From contig PLFB01000129.1 in NCBI GenBank assembly GCA_003137135.1, positions 43,707-84,406 of the forward strand: a stretch of 40,700 bases of DNA, written 5' to 3'. Below, piece after piece: positions 14,501 through 40,514 of the stretch. The translations under genes and the position numbers were made by a program. The notes under the pieces were generated by a model. The model did no database searches. It saw nothing but the letters and a program-made list of their open reading frames with translations, and had not been told where the DNA came from. Numbering within the stretch: the first letter of the stretch is position 1; every line of letters starts with the position of its first letter. This DNA is from Acetobacteraceae bacterium. Lineage in GTDB: Bacteria > Pseudomonadota > Alphaproteobacteria > Acetobacterales > Acetobacteraceae.

Positions 14501-14542
14501 ACGTTCGCCACGGGCATAAAATAGGTTTGACTTTCTGGAAAA

Positions 14543-14574
14543 CGGAATGCTATACGGAATGCATAACGTAATGC
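14543..14574. promoter_or_regulatory. Three 12-bp-phased CGNAATGC repeats; candidate operator upstream of the hydrolase/LLM operon
   Basis: CGGAATGCtataCGGAATGCataaCGTAATGC; units at 14543, 14555, 14567. A close copy occurs at 39258-39289. Confidence 0.65.
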
Positions 14575-14666
14575 AGACCGTAACTGGTCATTCTGGGTGG
14601 AATTAACTGTCGCGGCCGCATCGCCGCTCTAAGACCAAGTCAGCTGCCACAAGCGAGGTTTCGTTC

Positions 14667-15485
14667 ATGTTTATATCTCCCCTTCCCGAGACCAGGATTG
14701 TCGCGGGCCAGCAGGTTGAAATCCTGATCCGCGGCAAAGGCCAGCCGATTCTGTTCCTCCATGCCGGCCACGGCTTTGAGCCGGATGATCCGCTGGTTAC
14801 CGCGCTTTCGAAGCATTATCGGGTTTACGCGCCGTCGCATCCGGGGTTTGGCGCCTCTGACAGGCCAGATTATGTCAACAGCGTCGAAGACCTCGTTTTC
14901 TTCTATCTCGATCTCATCGAACAGCTGAATTTGCGCGATCTGATCGTGGTCGGCGTTTCATTCGGCGGTTGGCTGGCGGCGGAGCTGGCCACGCGCGGCA
15001 CCGGGCGGATCGCCAAGCTGGTGCTGATTGACGCGGTAGGCGTGAAATTCTCCGGCCGCGAGACGCGCGATATCGTCGATATCTTCTCGACCACGATCGA
15101 GGAAATTCCCAGCCTGTTCTTTAATGATCCGGCGACGGGGCTAAAAACCTTCGGCGGTCTGGACTTTCAGAGCATGACCCTCGAATCCGCGACCCGATTC
15201 GCCCGCAACCGGGAATCCATACTTCTCTTCGGCTGGTCGCCTACGCTTTATAACCCGAAATTGTTGCGCCGGTTGCACCGGGTGCATGTACCGGTGCTCG
15301 TGCTGTGGGGTGGGTCCGACAAGGTGGTCTCGACCAGCTACGGCAAGCAGTACGCCGCAGCTTTCGAGCACGGCGTGTACCGGGAAGTGCCGGCGGCCGG
15401 ACATTACGGATATCTCGAAAAACCGGCTGAATTCGCCGCCGAAGTGATCGGTTTTCTCGAAACAAAATCGCCGGCCGCACTCTAG
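14667..15485 (+). CDS. Alpha/beta hydrolase fold protein (C-C hydrolase-like)
   Basis: FLHAGHGFEPDD, VGVSFGGWLAAELA nucleophile elbow, late AAGHYGYLEKP catalytic His. Confidence 0.9.
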   Translation: MFISPLPETRIVAGQQVEILIRGKGQPILFLHAGHGFEPDDPLVTALSKHYRVYAPSHPGFGASDRPDYVNSVEDLVFFYLDLIEQLNLRDLIVVGVSFGGWLAAELATRGTGRIAKLVLIDAVGVKFSGRETRDIVDIFSTTIEEIPSLFFNDPATGLKTFGGLDFQSMTLESATRFARNRESILLFGWSPTLYNPKLLRRLHRVHVPVLVLWGGSDKVVSTSYGKQYAAAFEHGVYREVPAAGHYGYLEKPAEFAAEVIGFLETKSPAAL

Positions 15486-15506: not shown

Positions 15507-16685
15507 ATGGAATTCTGGCATTTCTGCGAACAATCGATGCATCCGGCATGGGACAAAATTGATGGTCCCACCAAGGTGCTGGTCGATAACCGTTTCTGCG
15601 ACCCTGAAGTCGCTCACAAGCTCTACAACCGTTATCTCGACGAATGGGTGATCGCCGATCAGCTCGGCTTCAATATTTTCGTAAATGAACACCATGCTTC
15701 GGCGAACTGCATGTCGGCGTCCTGCCTGCTGACCTTGGCGATTCTGGCGCGGCAGACGAAGAACGCCCGGCTGCTATGCCTGGGTGTGCCCGTCACAAAC
15801 CGTACCGACCCGTACCGTGTTGCCGAAGAACTGGCGATGATCGACGTGATTTCCGGGGGGCGGCTGGAGATCGGCCTGGTGAAAGCCTCGCCGTTCGAAC
15901 TTGCGATGTCAAACCAGAGCCCGGCGCGGATCATGGATCGCTACTGGGAGGCGCATGATTTCATTGTCAAGGCGCTGACCCATCAGGGTGCGCCGTTCAG
16001 CTGGGAAGGTGAGTTTTATAACTACCGTAACGTGAATGTCTGGCCGCGTCCCTTCCAGCAGCCGATGCCGCCGATGTGGATTACCGCATCCGGGCCGACG
16101 ACCGGGCGCAAGATCGCGCAGCTCGGCTATGTCATGGCCACGTTCTTCAACGGCGCCGGCACCAAGCCATTATACGACGCCTACAAGGATGAGTACCGCA
16201 AGACGCATGGCAAGCCGGCGCCGATCGACCGCTTCGCCTATCTCGCAATGGTCGTCTGCGGCCGGACCGAGGCTGAGGTGCAGGAGCGGGTGGAGAAGGT
16301 AAAGCCTTACCTGGAAGTGCAGCCGCGCACGCCAAAGGCCTGGTCAAACCCGCCGGGCTACGAGAATGTCGAAATGAACGCGCGTGCGCTGAATTCCGGC
16401 GTTACCGGGCGGATCAATTTCGGCCTGCCGGCCAACCCGACGCTCGCGGAAATGGCCGAAGGCGGCATTCTGTTCGCCGGCACGCCGGACCAGCTTTACG
16501 AGCAGATGGTGAAGTTCAGCGACCGTTGCGGCGGCATTGGCCGGATGCTGATGCTCAGCCAGGCGGGCTATCTCTCGCATGACGAAACCGTCGATACCAT
16601 GCAGCTGTTTGCAGCCGAGGTGGCGCCGCGTCTGCGCGAATATGCGCGGGCGAAAAATGAGGAAATTGTGCAAGCGGCGGAGTGA
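15507..16685 (+). CDS. LLM class flavin-dependent oxidoreductase
   Basis: NIFVNEHHASANCM, LGVPVTNRTDPYRVAEELAMIDVISGGRLEIGLVKA, late GGILFAGTPDQLYEQ; luciferase-like fold hallmarks. Confidence 0.9.
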   Translation: MEFWHFCEQSMHPAWDKIDGPTKVLVDNRFCDPEVAHKLYNRYLDEWVIADQLGFNIFVNEHHASANCMSASCLLTLAILARQTKNARLLCLGVPVTNRTDPYRVAEELAMIDVISGGRLEIGLVKASPFELAMSNQSPARIMDRYWEAHDFIVKALTHQGAPFSWEGEFYNYRNVNVWPRPFQQPMPPMWITASGPTTGRKIAQLGYVMATFFNGAGTKPLYDAYKDEYRKTHGKPAPIDRFAYLAMVVCGRTEAEVQERVEKVKPYLEVQPRTPKAWSNPPGYENVEMNARALNSGVTGRINFGLPANPTLAEMAEGGILFAGTPDQLYEQMVKFSDRCGGIGRMLMLSQAGYLSHDETVDTMQLFAAEVAPRLREYARAKNEEIVQAAE

Positions 16686-16747: not shown

Positions 16748-17986
16748 ATGCTGTTAAAAGTTGAAAATGGTCCTGAGGAGAGCGTCATGTCACAGATCAA
16801 GCTACGTCATGGTGTGTTTGTCGCACCTCTCCACCCGGTTGACGAAGATGCGAATTCGGTGATCCATCGCGACCTCGAACTGATGGAGTGGCTCGACAAG
16901 CTCGGCTATGACGAAGCCTGGATCGGCGAGCATCATTCCGGCGGATGGGAGACCATTTCGTCTCCAGAACTTTTTATCGCCGCCGCGGCGGAGCGAACCC
17001 GCCAGATAAAATTCGGCACCGGCGTAATTTCGCTGCCCTATCATCAGCCTTTGATGGTGGCTAACCGCATCATCCAGCTCGACCACCAGACCCGCGGCCG
17101 GGTGATGTTCGGATTTGGTCCTGGGCTGCTGGTATCGGATGCCGAAATGCTGGGGATCGAGCCGCATACTCAGCGCGACCGCATGGCGCAATCGCTGGAC
17201 GTCATCCTGCGGCTGCTGGCGGGTGAGACAGTAACCGAAAAGACTGAATGGTATGAGCTGAGAAACGCGCAGGTGCATCTTCTGCCCTATTCGCGGCCGC
17301 GGCCCGAAATTGCGGTGGCGAGCGCGGCAACGCCTTCGGGCGGCAAGCTGGCCGGCAAATATAATCTTTCCATGCTCTGCGTCGCCGCGACGGACCCGAG
17401 CGGCGGCTATAATGTTCTCGATATCAACTGGAATTTTGCCTTGGAGACGGCCAAGGAATTTGGCAACACGCTGAGTCGTTCGAACCTTCGGCTGATGGGG
17501 CCGATGCATATCGCCGAGACGCGCGCGCAGGCGCGGGAGAATGTGCGCTGGGGATTGCATAAGTACATCGAATACGCCCGCACGATCACGCCCGGCCGAT
17601 TCGGGGATTTTGGCGACCGCGACCCGGTGGATGTGATGCTCGATGCCGGACATGTCGTCATCGGCACGCCGGATGACGCGGTCGAGGTTTTGAAGAAGCT
17701 GCAAGCCAAGCAGGGCGAATTCGGAGCTTTCCTGCATCAGGCGCATGACTGGGCGAACTGGGAGAACACGAAGCGCTCTTACGAATTGTATATTCGGTAT
17801 GTTGCGCCGCATTTTAACGGCACGAATGCGAACCGTGAAAAATCCTATGACGACTGGAAGGAAAACTCGGTCGCCTACAGCTCAAAAATGGGTGCTGCTG
17901 CCAAGGCGACGCTGGAGAAATACGGCGCGACTGCCGGATTGGAAGCCGGGCGCAAGACCGGGATGATCGGCGCCAAAGCCGGGTGA
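16748..17986 (+). CDS. LLM class flavin-dependent monooxygenase, limonene-1,2-monooxygenase-like
   Basis: LRHGVFVAPLHPVDED, DEAWIGEHHSGGWE, GTGVISLPYHQPLMVANRIIQLDHQTRGRVMFGFGPG. An internal ATG (MSQIKLRHG) is an alternative start. Confidence 0.87.
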   Translation: MLLKVENGPEESVMSQIKLRHGVFVAPLHPVDEDANSVIHRDLELMEWLDKLGYDEAWIGEHHSGGWETISSPELFIAAAAERTRQIKFGTGVISLPYHQPLMVANRIIQLDHQTRGRVMFGFGPGLLVSDAEMLGIEPHTQRDRMAQSLDVILRLLAGETVTEKTEWYELRNAQVHLLPYSRPRPEIAVASAATPSGGKLAGKYNLSMLCVAATDPSGGYNVLDINWNFALETAKEFGNTLSRSNLRLMGPMHIAETRAQARENVRWGLHKYIEYARTITPGRFGDFGDRDPVDVMLDAGHVVIGTPDDAVEVLKKLQAKQGEFGAFLHQAHDWANWENTKRSYELYIRYVAPHFNGTNANREKSYDDWKENSVAYSSKMGAAAKATLEKYGATAGLEAGRKTGMIGAKAG

Positions 17987-18192: not shown

Positions 18193-19371
18193 ATGATGAA
18201 GCAAAAGACTGACAGGCAGCGCCAAGCATGCCGGTTGCGCCTGCGCATGCCGGGCGTGATATTGCCGCTGCTCGCTGGCATTGCCCCGGCGGCGTTGATG
18301 ACATGGTCTGCGCCGTGCGTGGCAGCGCCCACGAATGCCGCATCATTCGACAGTGATCCTTTGGTGGCGCCGTCCATCGCGGTTTTGCATCCTGACCAGG
18401 TTGTGCTTGAAACCGTGACCCTGGCCGGCCCGCGGCTTGTAGCCGGCGGCGAGCATGGCGTCATCATCGTCTCGGATGATTACGGCGCGCAATGGCGCCA
18501 GGTTTTTTCTCCCGTAGATGTAACAATTGATCAGATCAGATTTGCTGATGCACGGACCGGCTGGGCAGTTGGGGATTTTGGCGTCGTGCTGAAAACGCAG
18601 GATGGCGGGCTGACCTGGACCAAACAGCTGGACGGGGTGCAAGCCGCGAACTTGATGCTGATCAACGCCGAGGCGATCGCAGCGGCCAATCCAACCGACC
18701 CGGTGGCAGCGAAGCGGGTAAGACACGCCAAACTCTTTGTCAGCGACGGTCCCGACAAACCGTTTTTTCTTGTGCAGATTTTTGATGCGTTGCACCTGCG
18801 GATCTACGGCGCCTACGGCATGGCGTTCGAAACCCTTGATGGCGGCGCACATTGGGCGGATTGGAGCAGCCATATCACCGACCCTGGTCATCTGCATCCG
18901 TACGGTCTGGTCGAGACGGCCGGAACGATGATCTTTGCCGGCGAGCAAGGCATGCTGTTGAGCGGTCCGGCCGCCGGCCCGATTCAGCCGATGACCACGT
19001 CGCCTTATGACGGGAGCTTTTTTGGCATTCTCCAAACGCCAAGCGCCGGCCTTGTCGCCTATGGTCTGATGGGCAGTGTTTATGAAAGCCGGGACCAAGG
19101 TGCTACCTGGACGCAGGCAGTCAATCCATCATCATCAACGATCAATTGCGCCACTCTGAGCTTCGACGGTAAAATCCTGATCGGTGATTGGGATGGCAAT
19201 GTTTCGCAAGTTGAGGGCGCCAAGGTGGTGCCGACCGGCACGAATGCCGGATTTCCCATCTCTGATATGCTGGAGGCGCCGGATCAATCGCTCATCCTTG
19301 TCGGCATCAGCGGTGTGAAGCGCTTTCCGCCGGCTGTGTGGCGTGCCGCATTGACGGGACCCAAGAGCTGA
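18193..19371 (+). CDS. Ycf48/BNR-repeat-like predicted secreted beta-propeller protein
   Basis: Hydrophobic N-terminal signal-like segment; repeated DYGAQWRQVF / ARTGWAVGDFGVVLKTQDGGLTWTKQ / DGGAHWADWS / SRDQGATWTQA motifs. Confidence 0.85.
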   Translation: MMKQKTDRQRQACRLRLRMPGVILPLLAGIAPAALMTWSAPCVAAPTNAASFDSDPLVAPSIAVLHPDQVVLETVTLAGPRLVAGGEHGVIIVSDDYGAQWRQVFSPVDVTIDQIRFADARTGWAVGDFGVVLKTQDGGLTWTKQLDGVQAANLMLINAEAIAAANPTDPVAAKRVRHAKLFVSDGPDKPFFLVQIFDALHLRIYGAYGMAFETLDGGAHWADWSSHITDPGHLHPYGLVETAGTMIFAGEQGMLLSGPAAGPIQPMTTSPYDGSFFGILQTPSAGLVAYGLMGSVYESRDQGATWTQAVNPSSSTINCATLSFDGKILIGDWDGNVSQVEGAKVVPTGTNAGFPISDMLEAPDQSLILVGISGVKRFPPAVWRAALTGPKS

Positions 19372-21773
19372 TGGACGTCCAACTCGCACCACGGCCGGAA
19401 TCGGCCCGGCTTTCCGCAACGCGGCTAGAGGATTTTGACTATCAGTCCGGTTCGCTGGTTGAACGGCTGCTGTTCAACTGGCGCCCCGTCATTCTCGCCA
19501 TTTGCTTTGTCATCACAGCACTTCTCGGCTGGCAGGCCGTGCAGATACGCATCAACGCCAATTTTTTCGACGGCATTCCGACCAAGAATCCCTACATGGT
19601 CAATTTAATTGCGCATTATGATGACCTGTCGCAGCAAGGCAACACAGTCAGGATCATCGTCGAAGCCAATAGCGGCACGGTTCTGAACCCTCGCTATCTG
19701 CAAACGCTGCAGAACATCAACACGGAAGTTTCGCTGCTGCCGGGCGTTGATCGCGGCAACATGCTCTCGCTCTGGGCGCCGACTGTGCGATGGACGGCGG
19801 TAACGCAAGACGGGTTTGACGGCGGCACGGTGATACCGGATGATTACAACGGTTCAGCCGCCTCGATCCAGGCAGTTCAGAACAATCTCTTTCATTCCGG
19901 CCAGATCGGCAAGCTTGTCGCACCGGATTTCCGCTCGAGCGTGATTGTCGTGCCACTACGCGATGTGGTCGATGCGCGGGGTACGCCGATCAGCTATGGC
20001 GCGTTCTCGCGGCAGCTCGAAGACCTCCGCAAGAAATATGCGGCACAGGGTGTGACCATTCACATCACCGGGTTTGCGAAAGTCGTCGGCGACATCATCA
20101 ACGCGACGCCGGAGATTGCGCTGTTCTTCCTTGTGTCGATCATCATCACCGCGGGGTTCCTGTTTTCCTACACGCATTGCCTGCGCAGTACCTCGCTTGT
20201 CGTATTCTGCTCGCTGATTGCCGTCGTCTGGCAGCTCGGCCTGGTGGTGCTGCTCGGCTTCGAGCTTGACCCTTATACCGAGCTTGTGCCGTTCCTGATC
20301 TTTGCGATCGGCATGAGCCATGGCGCGCAGAAAATGAACGGCATCATGCAGGATATCGGCCGCGGGACACCCCGGCTAATCGCGGCACGCATGACCTTCC
20401 GCCGGCTTTTCATGGCGGGGTTTTCAGCACTGATCTGCGATGCCGTTGGCTTTGCGGTGTTGAGCATCATTCCCATCGTCTCGATCCAGCACCTCGCGAT
20501 CATCGCGAGCCTTGGGGTGTCGATCCTGATTTTCACCAATCTGATCCTGCTGCCAATCTTTCTCAGCTACACAGGTGTAAAAGCCTCGGCTGCGCAGCGG
20601 GCATTGCATGCGGAGGAGCGCGCCTCTATCGGCACGCATTTTCTCTGGGACATTCTCGGCAAGCTTACGGCAAGGCGCTGGGCCATCGCGGCAATCGCCG
20701 TGGCCGTCCTGCTTGCGGGCATCGGCTATAAGGTGAGCGAGAACTTGCAGGTTGGCGACCTCGGCCGGGGCGCGCCCGAACTGCGCGCGAATTCGCCCTA
20801 TAACCAGGATAATGCCTACGCCACCACGCATTACGGCGCGAGCACGGATGTGTTCGTGGTAATGTTCACCTCACCCCCTGGCCAGTGCACTGCGTACGCC
20901 ATGCTGCGCACGATGGACCAGGTGGAATGGGCGGCATCGCAGGTGCCTGGCGTCGTCTCCACCGAATCACTGGCAGCGGCCGCGCGCTATCTGATGATTG
21001 AGATCAACGAGCAGAATTTCAAATGGTTCGATTTGCCCAGGAACCAGTATTCGCTCGATTCCGTAACGGCGACCGGAACAATGGGGTTGTCCAATGACAG
21101 TTGCACGCTCAACCCCCTGCTGATCTACCTAAGCGACCACAAGGCCGGCACGCTGCTGCGCCTTACATCGCGGCTGAAAACCACGATGGCAATGATCTCA
21201 CCGCCGGCCGGAACGCAAATTTTATTGGCCGGCGGCAGTGCGGGCATCGCGGCGGCGACGAACGACACGGTCAAATCCGCGCTCAATCAAATGTTATTCT
21301 GGGTATATGGGGCGGTAACACTGCTGTGCCTCATCGCGTTCCGGTCCTGGCGCGCGGTGCTTTGCGCAATTTTGCCCCTTATCCTGACATCCATTCTCGC
21401 CGAGGCGCTGATGGTCGCACTTGGGATCGGCGTGAAAGTGGCGACCTTGCCGGTGGTTGCCCTCGGTGTCGGCATCGGCGTCGATTACGCCCTGTATGTG
21501 CTCTCCATCGTTCTGGCGCGGCTGCGCGCTGGCGAATCGCTTTACAGCGCCTACCGGCAATCTTTGATGTTTACCGGCCGCGTTGTGCTGCTCACGGGCT
21601 TCACGCTTGCCACAAGTGTCGCGATGTGGGTGTTCTCGCCGATCAAATTCCAGGCGGATATGGGGCTGTTGCTGTCGTTCATGTTCATCTGGAACATGAT
21701 CGGCGCGCTGGTTCTGCTGCCGGCGCTCGCTCATTTTCTGCTGAAGCCAGCGGCAGCAAGACGTTACGGATGA
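19371..21773 (+). CDS. RND superfamily transporter, MMPL/HpnN-like
   Basis: About 800 aa with repeated multi-helix bundles; FAIGMSHGAQKMNGI and GVGIGVDYALYVLS intramembrane motifs. ATG overlaps the upstream TGA (TGATG). Confidence 0.92.
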   Translation: MDVQLAPRPESARLSATRLEDFDYQSGSLVERLLFNWRPVILAICFVITALLGWQAVQIRINANFFDGIPTKNPYMVNLIAHYDDLSQQGNTVRIIVEANSGTVLNPRYLQTLQNINTEVSLLPGVDRGNMLSLWAPTVRWTAVTQDGFDGGTVIPDDYNGSAASIQAVQNNLFHSGQIGKLVAPDFRSSVIVVPLRDVVDARGTPISYGAFSRQLEDLRKKYAAQGVTIHITGFAKVVGDIINATPEIALFFLVSIIITAGFLFSYTHCLRSTSLVVFCSLIAVVWQLGLVVLLGFELDPYTELVPFLIFAIGMSHGAQKMNGIMQDIGRGTPRLIAARMTFRRLFMAGFSALICDAVGFAVLSIIPIVSIQHLAIIASLGVSILIFTNLILLPIFLSYTGVKASAAQRALHAEERASIGTHFLWDILGKLTARRWAIAAIAVAVLLAGIGYKVSENLQVGDLGRGAPELRANSPYNQDNAYATTHYGASTDVFVVMFTSPPGQCTAYAMLRTMDQVEWAASQVPGVVSTESLAAAARYLMIEINEQNFKWFDLPRNQYSLDSVTATGTMGLSNDSCTLNPLLIYLSDHKAGTLLRLTSRLKTTMAMISPPAGTQILLAGGSAGIAAATNDTVKSALNQMLFWVYGAVTLLCLIAFRSWRAVLCAILPLILTSILAEALMVALGIGVKVATLPVVALGVGIGVDYALYVLSIVLARLRAGESLYSAYRQSLMFTGRVVLLTGFTLATSVAMWVFSPIKFQADMGLLLSFMFIWNMIGALVLLPALAHFLLKPAAARRYG

Positions 21774-21887
21774 CTTCCAGTCATGGCGTCCGGTCCAAAT
21801 TTCCATTTGCGTAAATAGCAAATCAACCCGTAGAAAAAGGCTCACGATTCACAAATAAGAATTCGGTTTTTGGGGACGATAAAAGCA

Positions 21888-23564
21888 ATGAAACAAAATC
21901 ACCAGTCTTTTGCAGCGAAGCTTTCGTATCGCGCCCGCCGCGCCCGGTTTTTGAAGCGCTCTCTGCTCGCCAGCGCCACGGGGCTTGCATTCACGGCATT
22001 CGGCGGGCAGCGGGCTTCAGCGTTTCCGATTTCCACGCCCGTTCCGGGCCTTACCATCACCCTGGACAATACGGTGGAGGTCAACATCCTCGGCCGCACC
22101 GAGCAGAGCAGCCCGGATTCGTTCGACAATCCCAACGGGGATGATGTCGCGCAGAATTTCCGGCATTTCCTCTCGGCGGAGCGTATCGATCTGGATAGCG
22201 GCCTAGACGTGAAATACGATAATTTCGGCTTGCGCATTTCCGGCGCGGCCTGGGAAGATTTTAGCTACGACCAGAACAACAGCAACGCGTCGCCCGGCAC
22301 GATCAACTACAATAGCAGCAAATCAGACTCTTTCTCGCGCGCGGCCGACGGTCTGGCGGGCCACCGCGTCGAGCTTGATGATGCGTTCACCTTCGGGTCA
22401 TTTGGCATTGGCGATTCCACCTTGTCCTACCGTGCCGGCCAGTTCGTGCAAATCTATGGGCAGAGCCTGCTGCTGGCGGCGGAGGGCATTGGCGGCGTGA
22501 TGAACCCGATCGACGGCATCCGCGCGCAGATTTTGCTGAACCCGCAATCGCGCGACATTTTCATGCCGACCCCGCAAATTTCGGTTGTGGAACAGCTCTC
22601 CAACGGCCTCGCCTTCAGCGGCTATTACAAGCTCGGCTGGCGGGCGACAAGAATTCCGCCCTCTGGCTCGTATTTCAGCCCCTCCGATCTGTATGGCCCT
22701 GGTGCGACGAAACTTTTCCTCGGCGGCGGCGCGTTTTTCGGCCGCCAGAACGATATCCGGCCCAATGGCGGCGACAAGCAGTTTGGTGTCCAGATCCAGG
22801 ACAGTTTTTTCAACGACGATTTCGCCCTGCACTTCGTTAATTTCGATGCTTATGCACCCGAGGTCTATATCCACCCCGGCGCCGGCTTCAATCCATTGAC
22901 GGGACAGGTCGGCACTTATCAGTTCGTCTATCCGCGGGATGCGCAGTTGTTCGGCGCGAGCTTCTCCGCGAGCCCGACCTTCGGATCCTACCCGGTAAAC
23001 TTCGGCGTCGAAATCTCCGAGCGGCATCACGAAGGCCTCGTCACGAGTGGCAGCGTGGCGCCATCGGCCGCCAGCAACCAGAGCAATGTGTTTTATCCGG
23101 TTGGCGATGTGGCCCACGGCCTGGTTTCTTTCATCTATGCCTCGCCGCCGCTGCCAATGATCCGCTCCGACCAAGCCTCGGTGACCGCCGAATTCGGCGC
23201 CAGCAAGCTGCTTTCGGTATTCGAGAACAAGGCCAATCTCTACGCCAAGACCGAGGGTCTGGCGGTGGATGGGACGATTGACCTTGGCCTCAGCTACTTT
23301 GACATCTATCCGGCGGTCGACATGGCGCCGGCACTCGGCATTTCCTATGCCCCGCTCGGCAACTCCCCAGAAGGCTATTTCGTGCATGGCGGTGGATCAT
23401 TGTCGCTGGCCGATACGTTCACTTTGAACAAGGTCTATAATCTCACCATCCAGTACCGGCACTATGTCGGCACCTTGAAGAGCACGCTGGGTGGCGCCTC
23501 CGATCCAAGCCAGACATTATACGGCAAGGACTTCATCGGGCTAGAAGCCGATACCTCATTCTAA
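21888..23564 (+). CDS. DUF1302 family predicted outer-membrane protein
   Basis: Signal-like N-terminus ending RASAFPI; alternating beta-strand pattern and C-terminal ...DFIGLEADTSF; position next to DUF1329 and RND genes. Confidence 0.8.
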   Translation: MKQNHQSFAAKLSYRARRARFLKRSLLASATGLAFTAFGGQRASAFPISTPVPGLTITLDNTVEVNILGRTEQSSPDSFDNPNGDDVAQNFRHFLSAERIDLDSGLDVKYDNFGLRISGAAWEDFSYDQNNSNASPGTINYNSSKSDSFSRAADGLAGHRVELDDAFTFGSFGIGDSTLSYRAGQFVQIYGQSLLLAAEGIGGVMNPIDGIRAQILLNPQSRDIFMPTPQISVVEQLSNGLAFSGYYKLGWRATRIPPSGSYFSPSDLYGPGATKLFLGGGAFFGRQNDIRPNGGDKQFGVQIQDSFFNDDFALHFVNFDAYAPEVYIHPGAGFNPLTGQVGTYQFVYPRDAQLFGASFSASPTFGSYPVNFGVEISERHHEGLVTSGSVAPSAASNQSNVFYPVGDVAHGLVSFIYASPPLPMIRSDQASVTAEFGASKLLSVFENKANLYAKTEGLAVDGTIDLGLSYFDIYPAVDMAPALGISYAPLGNSPEGYFVHGGGSLSLADTFTLNKVYNLTIQYRHYVGTLKSTLGGASDPSQTLYGKDFIGLEADTSF

Positions 23565-23679
23565 CGGTCTGAATAGTGAAATCAGGTCATCTTGATATTC
23601 TAAAATATTGGGTCCTGGTTCGGGGAAAAATTGGATAGAAACGGCGTTGAGTCGCGAAAACGAAGATGGGAAAGCGTCA

Positions 23680-25038
23680 ATGAAACTTAAACTCACTCTC
23701 TTGGCCGCCACCGCCAGTATGCTGGCATATCAGCCGTCACCGGCGCGCGCACAGGTCACGGCGGCGCAGGCCGCACAGCTTGGCACTACGCTCACGCCGC
23801 TCGGCGCGGAAATGGCAGGTAATGCCGATGGCAGCATTCCCGCCTGGACTGGCGGCGTCTGCACGATGAACCTGGCCAGCGGCGATAACGGCAACATCCC
23901 GCCAGTGTTCGCCAACGAACAGAAGCTATTCACGATCGATGCGTCTAATGTCAGCAAGTATGCCGATAAGCTAACCCCGGGCGAGATCAAAATGATCACC
24001 ACGTTCCAGGGTTTTCACATGGATGTGTACCCGACGCACCGCACCGGCTGCGCGCCGCAATGGGTTTACGATAATGTTAAAAAGAACGCGCTTACATCCT
24101 ACATGAAGGGTGACTATCCGTTTGGATTTGCTGGCGGCATTCCGTTCCCTATTCCGCAGAATGGCGAGGAGATCGTCTGGAACAGCAATACCGCATGGGC
24201 CGGCCAGGATACGTCCGACGAGGTCAGCAACTATATCGTGCCGTTCAACCATTCGCCCATTTTGACCTCCACTACCTATGTCACCTATTTCAAGGATCTT
24301 TATCAGCCGGGCGTCACGACCGCCAATTATGACGGGATTTATACCCGCGACGAAAGCCAGGTCTCGGCGCCCGCAAACCGCGTCGGCGAAGTATACGATT
24401 CTTTCCAGCCGACATCGACACCGCCGCTCGATTATCGCGTCTGGGAGTATCTGGTCGGCCAGCGCCGGCTGCGTCTTGCACCAAATATCGGCTACGACGG
24501 CGCCTATCCCGATTGCGGCGGTCTCATGGATGCTGATGAAATCTACGTGTTCAACAACAAGCCGGACCATTACGACTGGAAACTTCTGGGCAAAAAAGAA
24601 ATCTACGTTCCCTATAACGAGAACGGGGCCTCTCTGCTGCCGGACACCAGCCAGCTGCTCGGGCCACAATTCCTGAATCCGGACCATATACGTTGGGAGC
24701 TTCACAGGGTCTGGGTCGTTGACGCCACGGTGCGTTCCGGCTTTCGCAATTTGATCGCGCACCGGACAGTCTATGCCGATGAGGACACATGGAGCTTCGT
24801 TCTCGCGGATGAATATGACAGCGCGGGAAATCTGGTGAAGTTCAACTCCATCCTGCCGATGGTCGACCCCGCGATTCCCGCCGTGCCCTTTATCACGACG
24901 GCGCTGTATGACCTTCACGGCGGCGGCTACTGCATGTTCCAGCTTCCTGTCGGCCCCAACCAATGGATCCTGAAAAACTCGGACAAACCCGTATCCGCAT
25001 TCGATCCGCAGCAGATCGTCAACAGCGCTGCGGATTGA
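23680..25038 (+). CDS. DUF1329 family predicted exported protein
   Basis: Signal peptide MKLKLTLLAATASMLAYQPSPARA; LGTTLTPLGAEMAGNADGSIPAWTGG start typical of DUF1329; VWEYLVGQRRLRLAPNIGYD. Confidence 0.9.
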   Translation: MKLKLTLLAATASMLAYQPSPARAQVTAAQAAQLGTTLTPLGAEMAGNADGSIPAWTGGVCTMNLASGDNGNIPPVFANEQKLFTIDASNVSKYADKLTPGEIKMITTFQGFHMDVYPTHRTGCAPQWVYDNVKKNALTSYMKGDYPFGFAGGIPFPIPQNGEEIVWNSNTAWAGQDTSDEVSNYIVPFNHSPILTSTTYVTYFKDLYQPGVTTANYDGIYTRDESQVSAPANRVGEVYDSFQPTSTPPLDYRVWEYLVGQRRLRLAPNIGYDGAYPDCGGLMDADEIYVFNNKPDHYDWKLLGKKEIYVPYNENGASLLPDTSQLLGPQFLNPDHIRWELHRVWVVDATVRSGFRNLIAHRTVYADEDTWSFVLADEYDSAGNLVKFNSILPMVDPAIPAVPFITTALYDLHGGGYCMFQLPVGPNQWILKNSDKPVSAFDPQQIVNSAAD

Positions 25039-25318: not shown

Positions 25319-26272
25319 CTATGCTGCGCGGCTTTGCACCTGCGCCGCATCACTTACATCCAGCGCCCTGAACGTTTTGACCAGCCAGTTCTTGAAAGCA
25401 CCAACCTGCGGCACATCCCGCCGCTCGTGTGGAATGGTGAGATAGTAACCAAGATCACGATGCAGCACGGTGTCGAATGGTTCGAACAACTGCCCCTCGG
25501 CGATTTCCCGGGCAAAGTAGGGCCGCTGGGCGATGACGATACCAGCGCCGGAAATCGCGGCCTGATAGGCAACGCTAAGCTCTTCAAACATCATGTTATC
25601 CTTGGCAACGATGCTTTCGCCTTTCACACAGGCGAGCCAGTCTGGCCAGTCATTGCGGCGGAAATCCTGATGTAGAAGCACATGGTCCTTCAGGATTTTT
25701 GGCGAATAGGGCCGCTTGGCTGGGTCGAGAAGTTTCGGGCTGCAGACCGGCCGCAGCTGGTCGTGAAACAACAGCGTGCTTTCAACGCCGCGCCACTGGC
25801 CATGGCCATAGCGAATCCGCACATCTTCCTGGCTGCGGCTCAGTTCCACCGAATCGGTCCCGGACACAAGCCGGACTTTCACCTTGGGATGCTGCACCTG
25901 AAAATTGGCCAGGTTGGGAAGCAGAAAACCAATCATGAAGCTGGTATAGGTTCTCACGGTCAGTATCGAGGCGCTTTTCTGCCCACGGAACTCAGCAGTG
26001 GCAGCACCTAGACGATCGAATATATCAGTCAACCGGTGAGCAAGCATGTCGCTCTTTTCTGAAAGCAGCAGGCCATTATGACAGCGCTCAAAAAGCGGCT
26101 CACCCATATAGTCCTCCAGCGCCTTCACGGACCGGCTGACCGCACCTTGCGTCACGCAAAGCTCATCGGCCGCCTGCGTGAAACTGAGGTGCCTTGCCGC
26201 GGCTTCGAAAGCGCGCAAGGGGTTAAGCGGCGCGATACGCCGTGCTGATCTCGCATGTGGATCTTTATCCAT
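25319..26272 (-). CDS. LysR family transcriptional regulator, GcvA-like
   Basis: APLNPLRAFEAAARHLSFTQAADELCVTQGAVSRSVKALEDYMGEPLFER; start at MDKDPHARSARR with GGAGGA upstream. Confidence 0.93.
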   Translation of the reverse strand: MDKDPHARSARRIAPLNPLRAFEAAARHLSFTQAADELCVTQGAVSRSVKALEDYMGEPLFERCHNGLLLSEKSDMLAHRLTDIFDRLGAATAEFRGQKSASILTVRTYTSFMIGFLLPNLANFQVQHPKVKVRLVSGTDSVELSRSQEDVRIRYGHGQWRGVESTLLFHDQLRPVCSPKLLDPAKRPYSPKILKDHVLLHQDFRRNDWPDWLACVKGESIVAKDNMMFEELSVAYQAAISGAGIVIAQRPYFAREIAEGQLFEPFDTVLHRDLGYYLTIPHERRDVPQVGAFKNWLVKTFRALDVSDAAQVQSRAA

Positions 26273-33267: not shown

Positions 33268-34425
33268 CTACCGTAAGGCCCGGAAAAATTCGCGCAAATC
33301 CTGCACCAGAATTTCGGGCTCCTCCATCGGCACAAAATGCCCGCCGGTCTGCGCCACATTCCAGCGTTTCAAATTATAATACCGTTCCGCCCAGCGCCGT
33401 GGCAGCTTCACGATATCCTTCTCGAACAGCAACACCGCGGTGGGCGCCTCAACCACAGGCTGGCGGTCATGGGACGGTACCCACGGGTTGCGTTTGGCCT
33501 CCGCGTAAAACCGTGCCGAGGTGCCCATACTCTGCGTCACCCAGTACAAGGTCATCGTTGTACACAAATCATCCTTGCTGAAGCGCCGCTCAATCTCGCC
33601 ACCGCAATCACTCCAGCGCCGGCGTTTTTCCAGAATCCAGGCGCAAAGCCCAGCCGGCGAATCGTTCAGCCCATAGGCAAGGGTTTGCGGTTTCGTGCTC
33701 TGCAGGCGCGAATACGCGCTTTCCTGTTCCAAAAACGCCGCATTGCCGGCTGCCCAGCCCTCCTCGCCCGGCCCGAACATCGACGCATCGGGCATGTTGC
33801 CGCTGATCATGCCCAAAGGCCCGGCCAGGTGCACATGAACACCCAGCGTCTTCGCGGCGTACTTATGACCAAGCTGCGCGGTGACGAACGCGCCAAAATC
33901 CCCGCCCTGCGCCGCAAATTTTTCGTAACCCAGGCGCTGCATCAGGCTCACCCACATATCCGCCGTGCGCGAAAAATTCACGCCCGGCCTGGTCAGCGGC
34001 GTGGAAAATCCGAAGCCGGGCAGGGAGGGTATGATAACATCAAACGCGTCCGCCGCATCCCCGCCAAACGCAGCCGGGTCTGTCAACGGCCGAATCACTT
34101 TCTGCAAATCCCAGAACGTCCACGGCCAGCCATGCGACATGATCAGCGGCATCGGCTTCGGCCCGCGCCCGCGTTCATGGATGAAATGAATCGGCAGTTC
34201 GTCAATCACGGTCCGAAAATGCGAAAAGTCGTTCATCGCCCGCTCATGCATCCGCCAATCATAGTCTGCCGCCCAATATCGCAAAAGCTCCTGCAAATAA
34301 GCGCCGTTCGTGCCATACTCCCAGCCATCATTGCCAAAATCCGCCGCCAGCCGCGTGCGCCGCAACCGCGATTTCAAATCATCCAGCACCTCATCCGCAA
34401 TATCGATCCTGAACGGTTCGATCAT
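33268..34425 (-). CDS. Epoxide hydrolase, EHN-domain alpha/beta hydrolase (copy 1)
   Basis: LPIHFIHERGRGPKPMPLIMSHGWPWTFWD, AQGGDFGAFVTAQLG nucleophile Asp, QTGGHFVPMEEPE. Confidence 0.93.
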   Translation of the reverse strand: MIEPFRIDIADEVLDDLKSRLRRTRLAADFGNDGWEYGTNGAYLQELLRYWAADYDWRMHERAMNDFSHFRTVIDELPIHFIHERGRGPKPMPLIMSHGWPWTFWDLQKVIRPLTDPAAFGGDAADAFDVIIPSLPGFGFSTPLTRPGVNFSRTADMWVSLMQRLGYEKFAAQGGDFGAFVTAQLGHKYAAKTLGVHVHLAGPLGMISGNMPDASMFGPGEEGWAAGNAAFLEQESAYSRLQSTKPQTLAYGLNDSPAGLCAWILEKRRRWSDCGGEIERRFSKDDLCTTMTLYWVTQSMGTSARFYAEAKRNPWVPSHDRQPVVEAPTAVLLFEKDIVKLPRRWAERYYNLKRWNVAQTGGHFVPMEEPEILVQDLREFFRALR

Positions 34426-34427
34426 CG

Positions 34428-35594
34428 TCAGCGCCGGAACGGCCGGAAAAACGCCCTGATATCCTCGGCCAGCGCGCGCGGCTGTTCCATCGCCGCAAAA
34501 TGCCCGCCGCGTGGCATTTCCGTCCAGCGTTGCACATCATAAACCCGCTCCACCCATTCACGCGGCGGCACCGCAACTTCGCCGGGGAAGGAAGCAAATC
34601 CAAGCGGCGGCAGAATGCGTTCGCCGGCGCGAAACATCAGCGGCGTCGCCTGCGCCTCCTTGTAAAGCCGGATGGCGGAGGTAATCGTTTCCGTAAACCA
34701 ATAAACCGAAACATTCGTCAGCAACGCGTCCAGCGGAACCACCGATTCAATATCCCCGTCACAATCTGCAAGCATACGGAACTTATCAATCAGCCACGCC
34801 GCCAGCCCCACGGGCGAATCATTCAGCCCGTAGCCGAGCGTCTGCGGCCGCGACGCATGAATCCCGGTATGCGTACTCGCCCCATGCGCCGCCTGCGCCG
34901 CCATCCGCGCGCAAAACGCCATTTCTGCCTCCGTGAGCGCCGGGTCCGCCCCGCCCACCGGCGGCTGAAGCGAGCCGGGAATCCAATTCAAATGAATGCC
35001 GCTCACCCGCTCAGGGAATAATCTGGCCAGCCACGTCGAAACAGTCGCCCCCCAGTCACCGCCCTGCACCCCGTATGCCTGGTATCCCAGCCGCGCCATC
35101 AGCGCCGCATAAATCTCCGCCATGACCAGCGGTGTCATGCCCGGCGCCACCGGCCGGTCCGAAAACCCATAGCCCGGCATCGAAGGCACGATCACATCAA
35201 ACGCATCCCGCGCATCGCCGCCAAACCGCGCCGGATCGGCCAGCAGCGGCACAATGTCCAGCATCTCGACAAAGGATCCCGGCCAGCCATGCGAAATGAT
35301 CACCGGCATCGGCGCTGGCCCCACGCCCCGTTCATGAATGAAATGAATAGCCCCGCCGTTTATTTCAGTCTTGAACTGTGCCAGCCGGTTGATGCCCGCT
35401 TCCGCCGCGCGCCAGTTAAACCCCTCGCGCCAGTAATCCGTCATCCGCCGCAGCGTCGTCATGTCGGCGCCATAGGCCCAGGGTTCCGCCGCAAGCTCAT
35501 CCGGCCATCGCGCCGCCGTCAGCCGCCGGCGCAAATCGTCCAGCGAGGAGCCTTCAATATGGACGGAGAATGGCGTGACCGGGACGTGTTCCAT
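34428..35594 (-). CDS. Epoxide hydrolase, EHN-domain alpha/beta hydrolase (copy 2)
   Basis: AIHFIHERGVGPAPMPVIISHGWPGSFVEMLD, VQGGDWGATVSTWLA, RGGHFAAMEQPR. Confidence 0.94.
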   Translation of the reverse strand: MEHVPVTPFSVHIEGSSLDDLRRRLTAARWPDELAAEPWAYGADMTTLRRMTDYWREGFNWRAAEAGINRLAQFKTEINGGAIHFIHERGVGPAPMPVIISHGWPGSFVEMLDIVPLLADPARFGGDARDAFDVIVPSMPGYGFSDRPVAPGMTPLVMAEIYAALMARLGYQAYGVQGGDWGATVSTWLARLFPERVSGIHLNWIPGSLQPPVGGADPALTEAEMAFCARMAAQAAHGASTHTGIHASRPQTLGYGLNDSPVGLAAWLIDKFRMLADCDGDIESVVPLDALLTNVSVYWFTETITSAIRLYKEAQATPLMFRAGERILPPLGFASFPGEVAVPPREWVERVYDVQRWTEMPRGGHFAAMEQPRALAEDIRAFFRPFRR

Positions 35595-39108: not shown

Positions 39109-39257
39109 TCTTGCTCACCAAAAATCCGAAGGTGACATTAACGCATTCGCGGGCGGAAGGTCCGGCACGATAATTTTGCCGGGTCGTGATGAAGATTGCA
39201 CATGCACGTTCCAAATCTTGCAAGCCCGCAGAGCGTAATTCTGGTTGACGCCTTATT

Positions 39258-39289
39258 TGTAATGCTATACGGAGCCCATAACGAAATGC
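39258..39289. promoter_or_regulatory. Second copy of the 12-bp-phased repeat element, upstream of the CoA-ligase operon
   Basis: TGTAATGCtataCGGAGCCCataaCGAAATGC; 26 of 32 positions identical to 14543-14574 by hand alignment. Confidence 0.65.
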
Positions 39290-39368
39290 AGATCACCTTC
39301 GCCGCCGAGACGAGGGATTCGGGCGCGAATACAGACTAACTCTGACGACATGTTATGGAAACCCCTCG

Positions 39369-40514
39369 ATGATGCTGCTGGAACATCACGCCAAGGAACT
39401 GCTCGCGCAAGCCGGCGTCCCGGTACCCGAAGGCATTCTCGTCACTGACTCCAAAGCCGCGCATTTCGCTTTTCCCTGCATAGCGAAGGCGCAGGTGCCG
39501 GTCGGCGGCCGCGGCAAGGCGGGCGGCATTCTGAAAATCAACACAGTGGCAGACGCCCAGCCCATCATCGAGCGGATCCTCGGCCTCACCATCCGCCACC
39601 ACCCGGTCCGCGCCTGCCGGCTTGAAGCGCTGGTGGACGAAGCCGCGGAGGCCTATTTCAGCCTGGCCTTCGATGCCGATACCGGCACAATCAGAGTTTT
39701 GATGGCGGCGGAGGGCGGCGTGGACATCGAATCGCCGGAAATGCGCGCCAAACTTCTGCAAGTTTCAGCACCCCCCGCCGAAGACTCCGCGCAAGCGGCG
39801 GTTGAAACCTTGCTCCCGTCTTTGCCACCAGCGATGCGCGCCGCCATGCGCGAAGCGGCAGTGCGGTTGATTCCATTGTTTTTCGCCCGCGAAGCCGTCC
39901 TCATCGAAATCAATCCCCTTTTCATCCTGGCCGATGGCGGCTGGATCGCCGGCGACGCGAAAATCATCACCGATGACAATGCCTTGCCGCGCCAGCCCGA
40001 ACTGCGCGCGCTGATCGAGCACTATCCAACACTCTACCCCGAAGCCGCGCTGAAACTCGCCCAAGGGTTCGACTTTGTGCGGCTCGATCCGGAAGGCGAT
40101 ATCGGCCTCGTCACCACCGGTGCCGGCCTCAGCATGCAGCTCGTCGATGAAATCATCCAGCGCGGCCATCGGCCTTTCAATTTTTGCGACATCCGCACCG
40201 GCGGCTTCAAGGGCGATCCCTCACGCCTGATCCAGGTTCTCAAATGGGTCGCCTCCGGCCCGAAAGTCCGCTCGATTCTGATGAATTTTTTTGCCGGCAA
40301 CACCGATCTCGCCGAACTCGTGCCGCTGATTCTGCAGGCGCTCGAAGCCGTCCCGCAATTGCGCCAGCCAATCACCCTGCGCATGACCGGAAACGGGCTG
40401 GACGCCGCGCGAAAAATTCTCGCCGCATCCGGCAACCCAATTCATGTCGAAACCGATCTGGAATGCGCCGTCGATCGCGCGCTCGCGGATGCGAAGGAAT
40501 CGCAAAATGGCTGA
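39369..40514 (+). CDS. Succinyl-CoA synthetase beta-subunit-like ATP-grasp protein (ADP-forming acyl-CoA ligase)
   Basis: LLEHHAKELLAQAGVPVPEGILV, GGRGKAGGI, LIEINPLFILADGGWIAGDAKI, DIRTGGFKGD. Confidence 0.9.
   Translation: MMLLEHHAKELLAQAGVPVPEGILVTDSKAAHFAFPCIAKAQVPVGGRGKAGGILKINTVADAQPIIERILGLTIRHHPVRACRLEALVDEAAEAYFSLAFDADTGTIRVLMAAEGGVDIESPEMRAKLLQVSAPPAEDSAQAAVETLLPSLPPAMRAAMREAAVRLIPLFFAREAVLIEINPLFILADGGWIAGDAKIITDDNALPRQPELRALIEHYPTLYPEAALKLAQGFDFVRLDPEGDIGLVTTGAGLSMQLVDEIIQRGHRPFNFCDIRTGGFKGDPSRLIQVLKWVASGPKVRSILMNFFAGNTDLAELVPLILQALEAVPQLRQPITLRMTGNGLDAARKILAASGNPIHVETDLECAVDRALADAKESQNG

Follow-up and report, generated by a model that had tools for sequence, protein, structure and literature searches.

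A 38-bp element with the features of an operator occurs three times on one contig of an Acetobacteraceae MAG, and in other genomes it recurs before orthologous genes and in association with a tandem pair of IclR-family genes. Judged from sequence, it is highly likely that these sites are the operators of one regulon, with IclR1 and IclR2 as its predicted regulators and with the mechanism proposed below. The window analysed here is a stretch of 40,700 nucleotides, covering positions 43707-84406 on a contig of 109,765 bases (G000:C247) in a 4.2-Mb MAG of 285 contigs. Two copies of the element, E1 and E2, lie within the window and the third, E3, lies beyond its end (Table 1).

The first-pass annotation had described near-identical 32-bp copies 25 kb apart, both followed directly by AGA, the second lying 80 bp before the ATG at 39369. 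This description holds: the E1 32-mer CGGAATGCTATACGGAATGCATAACGTAATGC (14543-14574) and the E2 32-mer TGTAATGCTATACGGAGCCCATAACGAAATGC (39258-39289) are identical at 26 of 32 positions. In the best register, shifted by three bases (14546-14577 against 39261-39292), the gap-free identity is 28/32. When the two intergenic regions are aligned locally, the score is 24, whereas 3000 dinucleotide shuffles average 9.9 and never exceed 18 (Gumbel p ~1e-6). The flanks fall outside the alignment. A common 12-bp phasing had been claimed as well; the 12-bp self-match is strong in E1 (20/26), which also has a palindrome match of 13/19, but not in E2 (11/26). As it is strong in one copy only, the 12-bp direct repeat was rejected as a description of the element; what the genomes have in common is a degenerate inverted repeat of 38 bp.

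Table 1. Features in and beyond the window. Coordinates are window positions unless a locus (L009) is given.
Feature	Coordinates	Strand	Basis and remarks
TTGACT-N18-TATACG, putative E1-operon promoter with its -10 inside E1	14527..14556	+	Read from sequence, inferred
Operator copy E1, two tandem dyads, 38 bp	14543..14580	+	Precedes hydrolase-LLM operon; relatives-only matrix 31.2, contig's top score
Alpha/beta hydrolase, first gene after E1	14667..15485	+	Pfam PF12697/PF00561; relatives' orthologs 58-64%
Luciferase-like monooxygenase LLM1	15507..16685	+	Pfam PF00296; orthologs 80-84%
Luciferase-like monooxygenase LLM2	16748..17986	+	Pfam PF00296; orthologs with own operator in G100, G102-G106
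Rest of presumed E1 operon: YCF48-like, MMPL transporter, DUF1302, DUF1329	18193..25038	+	Pfam; grouped by direction and spacing
GcvA-like LysR gene	25319..26254	-	Orthologs 59-68% in six relatives; absent from G107, G509
TTGACG-N15-TATACG, putative E2-operon promoter with its -10 inside E2	39245..39271	+	Read from sequence, inferred
Operator copy E2, 38 bp	39258..39295	+	Precedes CoA-ligase operon; relatives-only matrix 17.1, contig's third (next 10.6)
ATP-grasp/CoA-ligase beta subunit, SucC-like, first gene after E2	39369..40514	+	Pfam PF08442/PF00549, NCBIfam
IclR2	L009:3330-4220	-	HTH_IclR 45.3 bits, IclR_C 46.8 bits
IclR1	L009:4163-4984	-	HTH_IclR 42.0 bits, IclR_C 83.9 bits

A scan of the whole contig with a matrix built from E1 and E2 located E3 at contig positions 89140-89181, 4.7 kb past the window end. 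Its score with this seed matrix is 30.1, and the best place on the contig that overlaps no copy scores 3.7. E3 sits between IclR1 and a divergently oriented flavin reductase gene of the HpaC/RutF type; IclR1 is followed by the second IclR gene and then by a P450 gene. Is the element a dispersed repeat, as the first-pass annotation had considered? A pattern specific to the E1/E2 pair matches the 4.2-Mb genome only twice with up to three mismatches, so it is not. The genome-wide search with the three-site pattern agrees, returning exactly three perfect matches, all on the window's contig, and one further match with three mismatches, which is at background level. The pattern search found no true copy in 99 sampled relatives, including 37 congeners, and the same 99 genomes hold no close ortholog of LLM1 (best 46-47%).

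With a matrix built from relatives only, the three copies rank first on their own 110-kb contig, E3 with a score of 25.5. The chance maximum for this matrix was 15.9 in 12 simulated contigs of the same composition and 20.9 in simulated sequence of intergenic composition. Taken alone, E2 is borderline with this matrix, as it falls within the chance range for AT-richer sequence; it is supported mainly by its likeness to E1 and by where it lies.

Across genomes, the aligned sites form a 38-bp near-palindrome, with TGTTCTGTAATATGGAATA as its left half and TATTCCATATTACAGAACA as its right half, and the consensus contains two tandem dyads of the IclR group-1 type with centres 19 nt apart. The group-1 dyad, as given in the published survey, is composed of TTYCRY, three A/T positions and RYGRAA (consensus WTTYCRY-W3-RYGRAAW), and the centres of tandem dyads are spaced by 18-22 nt, a range that includes the spacing seen here (PMC8222616). 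Over 24 sites, the fit of the two dyads to this consensus averages 12.9 and 12.8 of 17, against a contig background of 6.3 (sd 2.0). The dyads of the own genome are degenerate, with fits of 12 and 12 in E1 and 11 and 11 in E2.

Orthologs of LLM1 at 80-84% identity were found by a named-genome scan with LLM1 alignment in seven genomes (G100 to G106): a Niveispirillum MAG, a Rhodospirillales MAG, several Sphingomonadaceae MAGs, a Sphingopyxis MAG, and Sphingomonas sp. AOB5. Several of the genomes compared are MAGs. In six of these seven relatives the seed matrix places sites 5' of LLM2 or of the hydrolase-LLM1 operon, and the refined matrix adds the seventh. The matrix that picked out these training sites was itself seeded with E1 and E2, and only the two distant genomes discussed below, G107 and G509, are fully held out. 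An SDR-CoA-ligase operon is seen in four relatives, with a clear site in G105 and G106, a weak one in G104, and none in G102. The three sites lie between the LysR gene and this operon, and in G100 a site stands before the LysR gene, which is probably itself a regulon member in the relatives. Sites also precede an aldehyde dehydrogenase gene (G104, G105), a PhyH-like gene (G104, weak), and an FMN-reductase-like gene (the Niveispirillum MAG). A RibB-like (DHBP synthase) gene, recognised by eye, often heads the hydrolase-LLM1 operon under the operator (L177:6965-7810, L045:8380-9156, L044:1831-2628, L043:8463-9155). Some of the labels RibB, FMN reductase, PhyH, SDR, and aldehyde dehydrogenase were read by eye from sequence rather than assigned by a family search.

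Since sites precede both gene sets in these genomes, the LLM/hydrolase genes are linked to the CoA-ligase genes outside the window's MAG as well. The earlier inference that a shared operator joins the hydrolase/LLM operon to the CoA-ligase operon is thus supported, and the conservation check suggested with it gives sites before LLM2 or hydrolase-LLM1 orthologs in seven relatives and before the SDR-CoA-ligase operon in three of four, one of them weak.

Which protein would bind these sites? IclR1 and IclR2 both exceed the gathering cut-offs (22 for HTH_IclR and 24 for IclR_C) and lie at window-equivalent positions 43624-45278, ~2.9-4.6 kb outside the window. An IclR1 ortholog (52-59%), each time with an IclR2 ortholog (46-52%) directly after it, is present in six of the seven close genomes. 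The exception is G101, a 3.4-Mb fragmented MAG in which the site is present and no IclR1 ortholog was found. The co-occurrence in the six close genomes is not decisive, because LysR orthologs occur in the same six; it is the distant loci that decide.

The distant set comprises 73 loci (1.25 Mb) with LLM1 homologs at ~45-52%. Two sites in this set score at least 20, and both are in L099, which also has the only IclR1/IclR2 pair among the 73 loci (35% and 33% identity). The two sites flank the pair, and one of the two separates IclR1 from a divergently oriented hydrolase-LLM1 operon. The genome of L099, G107, has a second LLM1-like copy (L060) away from the IclR pair, and this copy is without a site. 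A search for IclR1 homologs in the 49 genomes of the distant set revealed one further genome, G509 (42%). Its locus served as a held-out prediction from IclR1: it has the tandem pair and a site scoring 27.0 directly 5' of hydrolase-LLM1, plus a site scoring 17.9. For the other 47 of the 49 genomes, the site scan was confined to LLM1 neighbourhoods. IclR1 was not found in 401 genomes of the G106 family beyond the three already known, and an IclR1 query against the named collection gave no match. Operator and IclR pair are thus associated in the own genome, G100, G102-G107, and G509, which makes eight genomes besides the own one, two of them distant. A clear operator at the promoter of IclR1 itself was absent from most close relatives (G102-G106) in the matrix scan.

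The first-pass annotation had proposed two LysR proteins as candidates for the regulator. Its shared operator is supported, whereas the data point to the tandem IclR pair, which the element tracks, rather than to either LysR. Binding of the operator by the GcvA-like LysR, with activation or repression of the pathway, is favoured by the presence of its orthologs in the six close genomes that hold the IclR pair and by the sites that adjoin its gene in G105, G106, G100, and, weakly, G104. Inspection of the consensus also finds T-N11-A, a common feature of LysR sites, in each dyad, so that dyad geometry alone is not decisive against LysR; the IclR consensus implies the motif equally. However, in G107 and G509 the operator and the IclR pair occur without a LysR ortholog (best 37% and 30%), which leaves the LysR unsupported as the regulator. 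Moreover, the own genome has no copy at its LysR gene, and the overlap with the -10 suits a repressor better than the classical LysR activator site, which is located near -65. Regulation by this LysR is therefore regarded as quite unlikely. It is also improbable that a regulator encoded elsewhere binds the element and that the IclR pair is just a co-regulated neighbour. The IclR proteins are identified by association, most close relatives show no operator at IclR1, and G101 has a site with no IclR1 found, all of which would suit such a regulator; against it, the association extends over eight genomes, two of them distant, and the dyads match the published IclR consensus.

Could E1 and E2 be similar core promoters that have a -10 region in common and no shared regulator? 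Both matched stretches include the putative -10 TATACG, with TTGAC upstream. Yet the 28/32 identity reaches well downstream of the -10, and in the relatives the 38-bp inverted repeat tracks the IclR pair, while other LLM1 loci, including L060 of G107, are without it; this explanation is very improbable. The chance that the similarity is fortuitous, or that of a dispersed repeat, appears negligible. By an estimate made before the comparison was confined to intergenic DNA, 26/32 alone would be nothing unusual if every pair of positions in the window is considered, but the p-value for the intergenic regions, the third copy, the recurrence before orthologs, and the lack of any other copy in 4.2 Mb all speak against it.

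Under the preferred reading, regulation by the IclR pair, each 38-bp operator with its two tandem dyads would accommodate a pair of dimers or a single tetramer along one DNA face. Inspection by eye shows that each own-genome copy covers a TATACG or TACACG hexamer with TTGAC 15-18 nt upstream, and that in L099 the site next to the hydrolase-LLM1 operon lies over the TATAAT of a promoter reading TTGACA-N16-TATAAT. A strict sigma-70 consensus scan found no promoter at either E1 or E2, so the promoter placement is best regarded as putative. All three own copies would overlap the -10 of a promoter of the TTGAC...TATACG type, and bound IclR would keep RNA polymerase off it. The presumed inducer, a substrate or intermediate of the pathway, would release IclR from E1, E2, and E3 and so jointly switch on the hydrolase-LLM operon, the CoA-ligase operon, and the flavin reductase, respectively. 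In this most likely scheme the IclR pair represses and a pathway compound lifts the repression at all three sites together; the binding protein may be IclR1, IclR2, or both. IclR1 may also control itself, because E3 lies between IclR1 and the reductase. A more tentative suggestion, and on balance a doubtful one, is that IclR1 and IclR2 work together as a hetero-oligomer at a single 38-bp operator, with the inner boxes read by one protein and the outer boxes by the other. If so, the pathway, in which RibB/flavin reductase, the LLMs, and the CoA-ligase step are co-regulated, could be under the control of two ligands.

Because a flavin reductase is co-regulated here, and RibB-like and FMN-reductase-like genes in relatives, the arrangement suggests that the LLMs use reduced flavin, although genes for F420 biosynthesis (fused CofGH, CofE, and CofD) are found on the same contig at L009:10287-16652 (window-equivalent ~50581-56946), ~5-11 kb past E3. 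Past the window end, the E2 operon continues with genes for a CoA-ligase alpha subunit and an enoyl-CoA hydratase (ORFs and Pfam, L009). The E1 operon includes the YCF48-like/MMPL/DUF1302/DUF1329 cassette, and sphingomonad relatives appear to carry TonB-dependent receptors near the module; a swap of uptake systems between the own E1 operon and the sphingomonad relatives is possible. The window also holds two adjacent epoxide-hydrolase paralogs (33268-35594), each with EHN and abhydrolase domains, in which a 188-nt stretch is 73% identical. None of the 37 congeners has a close LLM1 homolog, yet orthologs at 80-84% exist in the Niveispirillum MAG and in sphingomonads. The island may have been acquired horizontally, or the contig may have been mis-binned, and the GC content of 62% does not discriminate between the two.

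The analysis provides a candidate regulator, operator, and regulon for a degradation pathway of alphaproteobacteria that appears to be uncharacterised (LLM monooxygenases, hydrolase, CoA ligase, and flavin reductase) and is common to the window's MAG, Niveispirillum, and several Sphingomonadaceae. Sphingomonas sp. AOB5 makes the regulon testable in a strain rather than in a MAG. The finding also offers a concrete case for the question of what role neighbouring IclR paralogs play. A literature search for tandem IclR pairs, paired-IclR operators, and IclR-controlled LLM regulons found no direct precedent; the parts are of known kinds, and a description of the regulon itself was not found in that search.

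How does the system compare with those already known? The tandem operators of IclR group 1 (Suvorova and Gelfand 2021, PMC8222616) are alike in their TTYCRY-W3-RYGRAA dyads, their tandem centres 18-22 nt apart, and their position at catabolic promoters. By contrast, the present operator is accompanied by one neighbouring IclR paralog pair, the own copies are degenerate with ATGC as the left outer box, and a regulon of LLM monooxygenases, flavin supply, and CoA ligase was not found in the passages of the survey consulted. PcaU, PobR, and PcaR of the beta-ketoadipate pathway likewise have multi-box operators over catabolic promoters, although the PcaU and PobR boxes quoted in the same survey, TTTGTTCGATWATCGMACAMA, differ in sequence from this operator (PMC8222616). 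The best NCBIfam match of IclR1 is to the PcaR/PcaU/PobR family TIGR02431 at 106.4 bits, and IclR2 reaches 52.5; membership was rejected, as both are far under the cut-off of 284.75.

PheR of Sphingobium sp. SHPJ-2 is an IclR-family repressor of a catabolic operon for a hydrophobic compound in a sphingomonad, and its 44-bp footprint, bound cooperatively, is comparable in length to the 38-bp site (PMC13273656). It differs in that one regulator serves an operon for an aromatic dioxygenase, with the core GCAACG, and the available part of the report notes no tandem IclR partner (PMC13273656). Although they belong to another host and another gene set, the diketocamphane monooxygenases of the CAM plasmid, described as flavin-dependent, two-component, and lactone-forming, are comparable in kind to the LLMs that are co-regulated here with a flavin reductase and a hydrolase (PMC6352141).
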